DNA of 64,000 nt from Neofusicoccum parvum (Eukaryota; Ascomycota; Dothideomycetes; Botryosphaeriales; Botryosphaeriaceae), in the NCBI GenBank assembly GCA_020912385.1, contig CP087209.1:1054001-1118000 (forward strand), in the 5' to 3' direction. Shown here piece by piece: positions 20,918 through 60,209 of the stretch. The notes under the pieces are model-generated. The model had not been told where the DNA came from. It saw only the letters and a list, made by a program, of their open reading frames with translations, and made no database searches. The position numbers and the translations under genes are program-made. Each line of letters opens with the position of its first letter. Positions within the stretch are counted from its first letter, which is position 1.

Positions 20918-21010
20918 TGAGGATGGTGCGATTTGAACGCACAGCCTTCAGGAAGCTCCAGATCGTAATGATCACTGGAATCTGACGCGCTACCGTTGCG
21001 CCACACCCCC
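20918..21010 (-). tRNA. tRNA-Trp(CCA), copy 1, with a 21-nt intron
   Basis: The acceptor stem GGGGGTG (21010-21004) pairs with CATCCTC, and the discriminator is A (20918). The D stem GCGC/GCGC is uninterrupted. Anticodon CCA is at 20978-20976, after U33 and before G37. A canonical 37/38 intron (20974-20954) includes CTGGA, complementary to the anticodon-loop TCCAG as expected for tRNA introns. The T arm is GTGCG-TTCAAAT-CGCAC. The A31-C39 pair is mismatched in both Trp copies. Length without the intron is 72 nt. Confidence 0.95.
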
Positions 21011-21716
21011 GACTTGTAAGAAACGCTTGCCACATGTGTTTATAATATGTTTTACCCATCGTGACGTGGAAGGTTCGGTGTTTGTTGTTCAGATGAGCGT
21101 AAGTGGTTGCCGATGGTTTAGTCATGCGGGGCTTCCCCACTGACTTCTGCCCTGCAGCAGCAACGTCCAACTCCAATGCCATCGTCATCCCACCTACCTT
21201 AAAACTCTCATCCTGGGGGTGATGGGCTCTGCTTACAGACAACATGTGTCAATTCTTATGGTGATCCCGTCTCCCGCCATAGGGGCCTGCACCAAAGGAC
21301 GAGGTCGGTTCGGAAAGGTTTGCAACAAATTCACCCATGAGCAGTTGAGGAATTCATCCGGATGGATTAAAGATTTCTTTCACTGCAAATTACGTCTGGA
21401 CGAATGCTTCAACTGTCCATGTGTGAATCTGTTGCAATACTGCCCGAACCAACCTCGTACTTCTTCTTTGCACTGCATCCTCTTTCACAGCCGGCAGCAA
21501 CACATGCTGACGAGCTACCCGGGCTTCCATGTGGCCCGGCTGAACTCTCTTCTGACGCAAAAGAAATATCCATCACTCGGCTCAACTCCTTCCCCAGGGC
21601 GGTGAGCTAGCGGAGTATGGGAGGTCCAGACCGGCGGTATCCACTCGGCGCTGCGGAGAAGAGTCAGGCACACCCCACGAAGCGTGAGACCTCACAGCAA
21701 AAAAGACAAAAACGAA
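21011..21716. other. Spacer between the two tRNA-Trp genes
   Basis: No gene. Several short open frames have no family resemblance. The pol III terminator of copy 2 is at its right end. Confidence 0.5.
21708..21712 (-). terminator. Pol III T5 terminator of tRNA-Trp copy 2
   Basis: Five T on the minus strand a few bases after the discriminator. A second run of six T (21704-21699) backs it up. Confidence 0.75.
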
Positions 21717-21861
21717 TGAGGACGGTGCGATTTGAACGCACAGCCTTCAGGACATTCCAAGTTGGATCTGGAATCTGACGCTATGAGGGGAATTAGTACG
21801 TTGGATTTCTTTTCCTTGTCGAGTCATTGGGAACTTACCGCTACCGTTGCGCCACGCCCCC
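21717..21861 (-). tRNA. tRNA-Trp(CCA), copy 2, with a tRNA intron and a 58-bp spliceosomal-type insert in the D stem
   Basis: The acceptor stem GGGGGCG (21861-21855) pairs with CGTCCTC; discriminator A is at 21717. Pair 6-67 is C-G here and T-A in copy 1, so both stay paired. Anticodon CCA is at 21771-21769 and the ordinary intron is 21767-21753 (15 nt, containing TTGGAAT complementary to the anticodon arm). In addition, the D stem is split after ...GGTAGCG by the block 21838-21781. Removing it gives GCG+CGTCAG, exactly the GCGCGTCAG of copy 1. The A box (mostly upstream of the insert) and the B box (GTTCAAATC) are intact and a T-run terminator follows. It may be a functional gene with two kinds of intron, or a recently interrupted copy; the sequence alone cannot decide. 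Confidence 0.9.
21781..21838 (-). other. 58-bp GT-AG intron-like insert inside tRNA-Trp
   Basis: It begins GTAAGT, a perfect fungal 5' splice site. It has TACTAAT 12 nt before the end as a branch-like site, followed by a pyrimidine stretch, and it ends CATAG. Length and signals match the mRNA introns elsewhere in this window. The position (D stem, between nt 24 and 25) is not where the eukaryotic tRNA splicing endonuclease cuts. Confidence 0.85.
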
Positions 21862-57689: not shown

Positions 57690-60209
57690 ATGGCAATGCC
57701 AGGCCCTGGAAATAACGGCGTCCATTTTGACGCAGACTCTCCTCTCCGATTGTTTCCAAGCCCGGGAACCACTAGAGCTCTTGGGGGCGCAGAAGAGAAC
57801 CCCAGCTCACTCGCTACCGACTGCCCTGATTGCACCGCAGCGGAAGGCAGTCATGGAGACTCTCAGCTTTGCACGCTTTGCCAGCACTTAAGGATCAATC
57901 ATCTGCTTAGATGCCTGGAATCTAGGTCTTCATGGCCGAAGATCAAGCTTGGAAGCCTGAATGACATGAAAGACCGCGAAAACTGCTCGTTTTGTAAGGC
58001 GGTGTGGCAGGCCGCCTTCTTTGCTCTCACAGCGCGCGGGAAGCCTTTTGATTGTAGTTCAGACCTGACTGTTTCTCTCGACCTTACGCGCTTTACTCCC
58101 TCTGAGGGCCACCTTATCGAAAAGGGGTTCTTCGTCGTTTGGACATATTTTCATGGTAAGGGAGACGTAGATCACATGAGCGCCCCGCTACTCGTTCGAG
58201 TGCGCAGCAAGTCCTCCGCCGATAGCGAGACATCTTCGGCACTTCAGTCGCACCTGCTGGGAAACTACATTGACTGGTCCAAAATCAAAGACTGGTTCGC
58301 GCACTGCTTGCAAAATCATACTCACGGCAAAGACTTGCACAGCCAGGGCGGACACCCTGCCGGGTTCAGACTGGTTGATATCCACAAGCAATGCATAGTT
58401 CCGGCGCCACCAGGAAGTCAATACATCGCTTTGAGCTACGTTTGGGGAGATCGACGGCACGATGCAACCGAAGCCTCGAAGTCGATGGTAGACACACTCA
58501 AACAACCAGGGAGTTTCTCCAGAATGAAGATGCCCGCTACAATCCAAGACGCAATTGCCCTTTGCTCCCATCTCGACATTCAGTATCTCTGGGTGGACCG
58601 CCTCTGCATCGTGCAAGACGACCAAGCCCACAAACACAGCCAGATCACTGCCATGGATCAGATATACTCCTCGGCCATCCTTACCATATGTGCTGCGGCC
58701 GGCGATGATGCAAATGCCGGGCTGCTTGGCCTGGAAGTGTCTCCGCGGCACTTTCAACAACGCCAGCACTTCACCAGCGCTCTGGAGATAATTCCAATGC
58801 TGCCTGCATACGAACACTTCAAGCTGACGAAGTGGGCAAGCCGAGGATGGACGTACCAAGAACAGTTTCTCTCCAAGCGGATCCTGCTGTTCACTCCATG
58901 GCAAATATTCTTCCACTGCAGCAAAGGAGCACTGGCCGAGGGCCTGTCCGACCGATGGATGCCTCTGATGGACCAGGAGGACGACTGCCCATCCCCCTCA
59001 TCCAACCCAGGCGAACGCGCCGACGAACAGCCCGACGCGGATTCCGACCACCGCTTCGCCAGCTACATGGAGCACGTCGAGAACTACAACCACCGCTCCC
59101 TCACCTACCCCTCCGACGTCCACAACGCCTTCGCCGGCATCTACAAGAGCCTCTACCGCACGCTCGCCAGCTCCCTCGCCAGCCTCCCCGGCCCCCACCT
59201 CGACCGCGCCCTCCTCTGGACGCACGCGCCCTCCACCCCCGCAGCCACGCGCCAGACCACCGCCGCCGCCGCCGCCCTCCCCTCCTGGTCCTGGACGCAC
59301 CTCTCCACCCGCATAACCTACAAGACGCCCCCCTCCTCCCCCCTCCTCGACCGCAACCGCCTCTTCGGCTCCCTCGTCGCCTGGCGCGACACCACCAACA
59401 CCCTGCTCCCCCCCTCCCCCTCCCTCACCTCCTGGACCCCTCCCCCCGACCACTCCACCCTCCCCTCCCTCGTCGCCACCTGGCCCAACCGCCTCCGCCG
59501 CACCGGCAACCTCTCCGGCTTCTCGCCCGCCCTCTCGCGCCTCTACGTCCACGCCGCCGCCGCGCTGGGCTGCTGCCGCCGCGCCGAGGGAGTGGCGCGA
59601 GAGCGCGGCCCCCGGACGTGGATGGCGGTGCAGGCGGCGTCGGCGCGGCGGTGGCCGGGCGGGCACGGCGAGTGGTGGCGGGACGCGGTGGCGGCGGGCG
59701 GGGAGGAGCGAGACGAAGGCGGGTGGACGGAGGAGGCGCTGGGGCCGGGGAGGCTGGGGTGCCGAGCCGGGGTGGTGTGGGTTGGGGTCGAGGAGGTGGG
59801 TGGGCGGGAGGACGAGCTGGTGCTGCTGCGGGACGGGGAGGGGAGGGCGGTCGGGACGGCGGCGGTGCCGGGAGGGCTGGCGGCGCTGGGCGGGCGGGAG
59901 GAGGCGCGGGTCTTCGCTGCGATGGCGCTGTCGGTGACGGATGCGGACGGCGAGCTGCTCGACCGCCTGTTCGAGGCCGATCCGGGGCTGGGCGCGGTGG
60001 AGCGCGGTCGGGATGGCGAGCGCACCGAGGCCAGCCCCGACGTGACTGTCCGTGACGGCGAGGGCGTTCCTCTGGTTCCTCCGCCTGCGCTGAACGTCAT
60101 GATGCTGGGTTGGCGAGGAGAGGTTGCGCACCGCATCGCTATTGGTAAAGTGCTCTTGACGCGCTGGGCTGGAGCTGGACCGCAGTTCAGGAACGTCGTT
60201 CTCGAGTGA
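57690..60209 (+). CDS. HET-domain protein (heterokaryon-incompatibility type)
   Basis: A single exon of 839 aa. The N-terminal region has a CPDC...LCTLCQHL...CSFCKAVW arrangement of Cys residues common upstream of HET domains. The HET domain starts at about residue 244 with YIALSYVWGDRR, then MPATIQDAIALCSHLDIQYLWVDRLCIVQDD, DQIYSSAILTICAA and SRGWTYQEQFLSKRIL, all intact. HET proteins trigger cell death on non-self recognition in fungi; here that is known of the family only. The C-terminal half has no recognised domain. Around 59060-59590 codons almost all end in C (Pro/Ser/Thr/Leu-rich) and from about 59600 they end in G (Ala/Gly/Val/Glu/Arg-rich), an abrupt change inside one exon. The intact frame contrasts with the broken HET copy at 49.6-50.8 kb. 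Confidence 0.9.
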   Translation: MAMPGPGNNGVHFDADSPLRLFPSPGTTRALGGAEENPSSLATDCPDCTAAEGSHGDSQLCTLCQHLRINHLLRCLESRSSWPKIKLGSLNDMKDRENCSFCKAVWQAAFFALTARGKPFDCSSDLTVSLDLTRFTPSEGHLIEKGFFVVWTYFHGKGDVDHMSAPLLVRVRSKSSADSETSSALQSHLLGNYIDWSKIKDWFAHCLQNHTHGKDLHSQGGHPAGFRLVDIHKQCIVPAPPGSQYIALSYVWGDRRHDATEASKSMVDTLKQPGSFSRMKMPATIQDAIALCSHLDIQYLWVDRLCIVQDDQAHKHSQITAMDQIYSSAILTICAAAGDDANAGLLGLEVSPRHFQQRQHFTSALEIIPMLPAYEHFKLTKWASRGWTYQEQFLSKRILLFTPWQIFFHCSKGALAEGLSDRWMPLMDQEDDCPSPSSNPGERADEQPDADSDHRFASYMEHVENYNHRSLTYPSDVHNAFAGIYKSLYRTLASSLASLPGPHLDRALLWTHAPSTPAATRQTTAAAAALPSWSWTHLSTRITYKTPPSSPLLDRNRLFGSLVAWRDTTNTLLPPSPSLTSWTPPPDHSTLPSLVATWPNRLRRTGNLSGFSPALSRLYVHAAAALGCCRRAEGVARERGPRTWMAVQAASARRWPGGHGEWWRDAVAAGGEERDEGGWTEEALGPGRLGCRAGVVWVGVEEVGGREDELVLLRDGEGRAVGTAAVPGGLAALGGREEARVFAAMALSVTDADGELLDRLFEADPGLGAVERGRDGERTEASPDVTVRDGEGVPLVPPPALNVMMLGWRGEVAHRIAIGKVLLTRWAGAGPQFRNVVLE

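Follow-up and report, generated by a model that had tools for sequence, protein, structure and literature searches.

Spliceosomal-type introns in nuclear tRNA genes of Neofusicoccum parvum

A second tRNA-Trp gene with an intron in its D stem

The window analysed here is a 64,000-nt stretch of Neofusicoccum parvum DNA (assembly GCA_020912385.1, contig CP087209.1, positions 1,054,001 to 1,118,000), and it carries two tRNA-Trp genes on the minus strand. Copy 1 (20918-21010) has no ectopic intron and served as the comparison copy. Copy 2, a tRNA-Trp(CCA) gene (21717-21861), is interrupted by a spliceosomal-type intron in the D stem and by an ordinary intron at 37/38. All of its parts lie on the minus strand. 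The 5' exon (21839-21861) comprises tRNA positions 1-24, and it is followed at 24/25 by a 58-nt GT...AG ectopic intron (21781-21838), which contains the 5' splice site GTAAGT (21833-21838), a branch-site-like TACTAAT (21792-21798) whose branch A lies 12 nt before the intron end, and the 3' splice site CATAG (21781-21785). The middle exon (positions 25-37, anticodon CCA; 21768-21780), the ordinary 15-nt intron at 37/38 (21753-21767) and the 3' exon (positions 38-73; 21717-21752) complete the gene. Its A box (TGGCGCAACGG, 21844-21854), called on sequence, and its B box (GTTCAAATC, 21729-21737), called on sequence and pattern, are both unbroken, each judged against what we take to be the consensus. 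The first downstream T run (T5, 21708-21712) resembles a pol III terminator.

The preliminary description of this locus had reported that a 58-bp block with GT-AG ends interrupts the D stem of copy 2, beside an ordinary 15-nt intron at 37/38, and both are present, with GTAAGT...TACTAAT...CATAG read directly at 21781-21838. It had also stated that exact removal of the block restores the D arm of copy 1; removal gives GGTAGCGCGTCAG, the same as in copy 1. Over the 5' 36 nt, spliced copy 2 and copy 1 differ at 1 of 36 positions, and the only placements that yield the same spliced copy 2 are GT..AG and GG..TA. The motif formed by the D arm and GTRDGY occurs once in the window and in 0 of 100 shuffles. 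ARAGORN called no tRNA on the window, and the Rfam tRNA model matched copy 1 and two other tRNAs and missed copy 2.

Several protein reading frames lie in the same window. A 944-aa frame with a reverse transcriptase domain (PF00078; 24213-27047, plus strand) is found about 2.4 kb from copy 2, and an 839-aa frame with a HET (heterokaryon incompatibility) domain occupies 57690-60209 (plus strand). A Vps41 reading frame matches a Neofusicoccum parvum protein at 100% identity across 60% of its length and a Macrophomina phaseolina protein at 85%, so the source is probably N. parvum or a near relative within Botryosphaeriaceae; tblastn of these two proteins on the window gave 96-97% and 76-96%, respectively, in separate pieces and with gaps included, and yielded too few mRNA introns for a comparison.

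A search of the fungus's own genome (44.0 Mb, 18 contigs) revealed a third tRNA-Trp gene (L002, contig C1), 81% identical to copy 2 over its full length, in which an insertion of 60 bp (GTAGGT...TACTAAC...TTATAG) occupies the site of the copy-2 ectopic intron. The mature parts of copy 2 and L002 are identical at 71 of 72 positions, the sole difference being one D-loop base, and the aligned bases agree at 10/15 in the ordinary intron and at 24/43 in the ectopic intron outside the signals. The earlier expectation that tRNA-Trp with the C6-G67 pair comes from copy 2 alone is wrong, since L002 shares this acceptor stem and is likewise interrupted in the D stem; among the three Trp genes found, C6-G67 occurs only in the two that bear the intron. 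The suggestion that copy 2 was newly inactivated by the insertion is not supported, because the diverged paralogue L002 has the intron too and both mature sequences are intact. By eye, all three tRNA-Trp genes (20918-21010 and 21717-21861 in the window, and L002) have A31 and C39, a non-standard pair, in the anticodon stem.

Ectopic introns across the genome

Genome-wide, at least 111 distinct tRNA genes were found, and 20 of them, about one fifth, carry a total of 21 ectopic introns of 52-65 nt. The hosts represent 12 isoacceptors and 10 amino acids, and the introns occupy 11 positions across the D arm, A box, anticodon stem and T arm, in 14 family/position combinations (position numbers were counted by hand on the spliced sequences). 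An intron at 24/25 is present in two Trp, two initiator Met and two Val-CAC genes, one of the latter being interrupted again in the T arm, at 60/61, so that this gene holds two spliceosomal-type introns and a Sen-type intron. Three Leu-CAG genes are interrupted at 25/26, and the anticodon stem is split at 30/31 in three Phe genes and in Glu-UUC. The remaining sites are 9/10 (Ala-UGC), 10/11 (Pro-UGG-1), 11/12 (Ser-GCU), 16/18 (Ser-AGA), 19/20 (Ala-AGC), 20/21 (His) and 57/58 in the T loop (Pro-UGG-2). The ectopic introns thus span 9/10 to 60/61, and none of the 21 lies at the Sen-type position 37/38. Both intron types occur together in 17 of the 20 genes, the ordinary intron being absent from Ser-AGA and the two initiator Met genes. 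The site 24/25 is common to the Trp, initiator Met and Val-CAC introns and 30/31 to those of Glu and Phe, which hints at insertion hot spots or at exchange between families.

For four isoacceptors, every gene found has an ectopic intron: Leu-CAG (3/3), Val-CAC (2/2), Pro-UGG (2/2, plus one decayed relic) and Ala-UGC (1/1). Copies free of it were found for Trp (1/3), Phe (2/5), initiator Met (1/3), Glu-UUC (1/2), Ala-AGC (1/2), Ser-AGA (3/4), Ser-GCU (2/3) and His (2/3). The relic (L229, 171691, plus strand), decayed by C-to-T changes that we take to be RIP-like, adjoins Pro-UGG-2 (L228, G000:C16:171449, plus strand) and derives from the same gene and intron. For Arg-CCT a single gene was found (L078 = L220, G000:C10:1506204-1506332, minus strand). 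Its D loop holds an insertion in which GTAAGT and CACTAAC are spaced as usual, but CG stands where the 3' AG is due and there is no AG ahead of exon 2; this insertion was left out of the 21.

The inventory combines 106 genes found by scan, three that the scan script did not detect (L014, L175 and L178), and an Ile and a Lys-UUU gene (L267) that were found later, both lacking an ectopic intron; L280, a third scan match beside these two, was treated as spurious. Six B-box-type motifs were searched, and many new places were scanned for an A box and for base pairing in the acceptor and T stems. Excluded were known places, those with unpairable T-stem ends, subtelomeric or transposon-like repeats and, for two of the motifs, part of the remaining matches, and for one of these two 102 places were counted and fewer listed. 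A second script removed GT...CTRAY...AG stretches before the cloverleaf check, and paralogues were added through whole-gene similarity searches. The splice-and-check script returned 0 false cases among 2280 shuffled decoys made from 114 B-box places, and a looser version run on 174 places recovered all 11 cases lying there and no new one. None of the genome searches turned up a gene for Tyr or Asn tRNA, so 111 is a lower bound; the genes for these two tRNAs may be interrupted as well. Yeast probes for Tyr, Asn and Lys-UUU tRNAs had no match in the genome, and since the Lys-UUU gene L267 turned up afterwards, these probes are insensitive.

Standard tRNA finders overlook or misname intron-bearing genes of this sort. 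The Rfam tRNA family, searched on the whole genome with 63 of 860 first-look candidates scored, gave at least 49 genes over the cut-off, and two tRNAs known from the window were absent from them. On ten intron-bearing loci including Arg-CCT, three scored above the gathering score, at 34-35 bits. ARAGORN assigned the correct amino acid to 0 of the 20 unspliced genes and to 17 of the 20 spliced ones; Ala-UGC, Val-CAC-2 and Ser-GCU failed after splicing, and for Ala-AGC the amino acid was right and the anticodon was shifted.

Three minor features were recorded among the scanned loci. A Ser-CGA tRNA gene (L018, near G000:C3:193319) lies close to a Ser-AGA gene. Locus L156 (G000:C2:2164623-2165135, plus strand) is tRNA-like in that its T arm is paired and a T run lies downstream, and it fits no gene model that was tried. 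Locus L135 contains a second T-arm-like stretch.

All 21 ectopic introns have GT...YAG ends. The donor reads GTRNGY in 20/21 and GTRWGT in 14/21, with G at position 5 in every intron, and a branch-like CTRAY (20/21; TTAAC in the other one) lies 10-15 nt before the intron end, the exact RCTRAY being present in 13/21. Each intron allows 1-4 placements of its boundaries. The published fungal consensus is GTRWGT / RCTRAY / YAG with a branch distance of 6-36 (PMC5832005). The signals of the ectopic introns fit this consensus, which served as the yardstick. The search that found Ser-AGA, Ala-UGC and Ser-GCU itself required GT-AG, so these genes provide no test of it; a log10 chance value of -44.6 was set aside because of these three genes. 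Among the 18 insertions found through similarity or structure searches with no splice-site criterion (window copy excluded), 17 are GT-AG, the exception being Arg-CCT. Six of them (three Phe, Pro-UGG-1 and two initiator Met) were recognised by eye, and an odd non-GT-AG insertion could have been missed among such finds.

Conservation and the nature of the introns

We compared nine paralogue pairs from five families. The mature tRNAs were identical at 664 of 689 columns and the 15 splice-signal positions at 121 of 135, the ordinary introns at 168 of 251 columns, and the interiors of the ectopic introns at 165 of 399, compared with 343 of 1077 for shuffled interiors under the same aligner. Divergence is uneven, the introns of Leu-CAG copies a and b being most alike (27 of 33 aligned bases outside the signals). 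The results show that most intron interiors are near saturation while the mature tRNA and the splice signals are kept. Exon identity could come partly from gene conversion with intronless copies, a process able to keep exons alike and hardly able to keep the signals alone. The spliced genes form regular cloverleaves, with an acceptor stem of 7/7 pairs in 19 of 20 and 6/7 in one, and a T stem of 5/5 in all 20. In Leu-CAG copy c, three acceptor-stem pairs are changed on both sides relative to copy a and are still paired.

These comparisons bear on whether the interrupted copies are pseudogenes inactivated by intron insertion. A 2014 review describes insertions in the D and T arms of eukaryotic tRNA genes as mostly supposed pseudogenes (PMC4090602), and both the decayed Pro-UGG-2 relic and the Arg-CCT gene lacking its AG would agree with that. 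The retention of mature sequences and signals beside diverged interiors, the compensatory acceptor-stem changes in Leu-CAG copy c and the four isoacceptors for which the still incomplete inventory holds no uninterrupted copy all argue against decay, and we consider pseudogenes very unlikely.

Sequence comparison makes it highly probable that copy 2 is a working gene and that its block is a U2-type spliceosomal intron, belonging to a set of at least 21 that are spread over 20 nuclear tRNA genes. The proposal that the spliceosome removes the copy-2 intron gains strong support from the same comparison, namely 21 introns in 20 genes with exons and signals kept and interiors near saturation, and also because four isoacceptors have such an intron in every gene found. 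The locus had been presented as a single unusual case; the block is real, and it belongs to a genome-wide pattern. We also lean towards the view that the spliceosome is an essential tRNA-processing machine in this fungus, with Leu-CAG, Val-CAC, Pro-UGG and Ala-UGC tRNAs apparently made only from genes with spliceosomal introns. If so, mRNA splicing capacity would directly limit translation.

Ectopic tRNA introns are known from Cyanidioschyzon merolae, nucleomorphs and archaea, where they lie in the D, anticodon and T arms and a single gene may hold several; those of archaea and C. merolae are tied to bulge-helix-bulge (BHB) motifs, and in the Guillardia nucleomorph they measure 3-24 nt, many with no defined BHB (PMC4090602, PMC3978253). 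The introns described here share such locations and differ in their length of 52-65 nt, their spliceosomal signals and their lack of BHB enrichment. Removal by the tRNA splicing endonuclease through BHB-like folds, as in Cyanidioschyzon or archaea, could draw on the 8 of 21 junctions that pass a BHB test with loose criteria, namely those of three Leu-CAG and three Phe genes, Ala-UGC and Pro-UGG-1. However, 6.7 of 21 are expected when the introns are permuted among the sites, so BHB-type introns were rejected for want of enrichment. We know of no need for GT-AG or CTRAY in the BHB endonuclease pathway, and GT...YAG in 21/21 and CTRAY in 20/21 also speak against it, as does the copy-2 precursor, in which no special folding was detected (z -0.24). 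We regard this pathway as extremely unlikely.

A recent burst of introners was considered as well and rejected on a genome search with 19 first-look candidates scored, in which distant copies could be missed: all 21 introns matched themselves, and the one other match to any of them was weak (E 0.53) and lay in the decayed relic. Introner-like copies of the 58-mer, which had been suggested as something to look for, did not appear in this search, the copy-2 intron matching only its own genomic place. There was no match in plasmids, viral contigs or prokaryote genome contigs, and 33 matches in bacterial records were taken as chance.

Relation to known introns and route of transcription

The closest parallels are the introns of fungal U3 snoRNA and U6 snRNA genes, which likewise combine GT-AG ends and a branch site within small structured RNA genes; no small structured RNAs besides U3 and U6 are known as frequent hosts of an intron, and U3 introns lie almost all in the first stem-loop (PMC5832005). 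Here, in contrast, the hosts are tRNA genes of 12 isoacceptors with introns at 11 positions, and 17 of 20 carry an unrelated tRNA-type intron in the same precursor. The ordinary 37/38 Sen introns, found in those 17 genes, also interrupt nuclear tRNA genes, but the ectopic introns differ from them in position, in their GT-AG and branch signals and presumably in the enzyme that removes them. Certain fungal 18S rDNA introns sit in rRNA, which is transcribed by pol I, and not in tRNA. They resemble the present introns as mRNA-type, that is spliceosomal-type, introns in a gene for an RNA not made by pol II, as indicated by a title cited in PMC11782384. Eukaryotic tRNA genes are limited to one intron according to the tRNAscan-SE 2.0 paper (PMC8450103). 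Among the papers listed in searches of open PubMed Central, which cover few subscription journals and no bioRxiv preprints and could have missed a report there, none had a title or abstract beginning on spliceosomal introns in tRNA genes; the string "spliceosom" is absent from the main texts of PMC4090602, PMC4033280 and PMC8450103, and "spliceosomal" occurs once in PMC3978253, about protein genes. The spliceosome and small structured RNA hosts are already known, and tRNA genes as hosts, in such number, appear to be new.

In teaching, tRNA introns are kept apart from mRNA introns, each system having its own machine, and spliceosomal introns in 20 of the 111 tRNA genes found would join the two. 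They would show that the spliceosome is trusted with abundant, short, highly structured and probably pol III-transcribed RNAs, and would offer natural substrates for asking how it reaches pol III transcripts that have no cap or CTD, how introns are gained (14 family/position combinations) and how an intragenic promoter survives an intron.

The introns are probably excised from pre-tRNAs transcribed by pol III. Pol III would transcribe the gene from its A and B boxes, and the nuclear spliceosome would recognise GTRNGY, CTRAY and YAG and remove the 52-65-nt intron as a lariat. Only after that would the tRNA fold, be trimmed and be exported, and the 37/38 intron would be cut separately and later by the tRNA splicing endonuclease. 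The Sen enzyme measures the tRNA body (PMC4090602), and an intron in the D or anticodon stem should block folding of that body, so splicing by the spliceosome should come first, in the nucleus.

Alternatively, the spliceosome might act on pol II read-through transcripts, with RNase P and RNase Z then cutting the mature ends. Pol II RNA is the usual substrate of the spliceosome, and the introns break the A box in Ala-UGC, Pro-UGG-1, Ser-GCU and Ser-AGA and touch the B box in two other genes, which favours this route. Read unspliced, position-8 A boxes of the four genes have 4, 2, 1 and 1 mismatches, respectively, to TRGYNNARNGG, which we take to be the A-box consensus, and no clear effect of A-box regeneration by the intron was seen in the five genes tried. 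The Pro-UGG-2 intron breaks the B box, yet contains a B-box-like GTTCAATCC, a perfect GTTCRANNC that 0.5% of interior shuffles match. Broken boxes are awkward for pol III, and a displaced promoter or pol II is possible for these genes. In the other 14 of the 20 genes, however, the introns lie outside both boxes, and all 20 genes are followed by a T4 run within 50 nt, 15 of them within 25 nt. A known precedent is the intron of U6 snRNA (PMC5832005), and U6 is a pol III RNA (PMC10484740). We judge pol II read-through unlikely, and excision from pol III precursors remains the preferred reading.

Avoidance of T runs was tried as a further sign of pol III and dropped: none of the ectopic introns contains TTTT, and 26% of shuffles are equally free of it, so the absence is not significant. 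About 10 nt downstream of the end of the Ala-AGC gene (L081), there is a second B-box-like sequence, GGTTCAATTCC.
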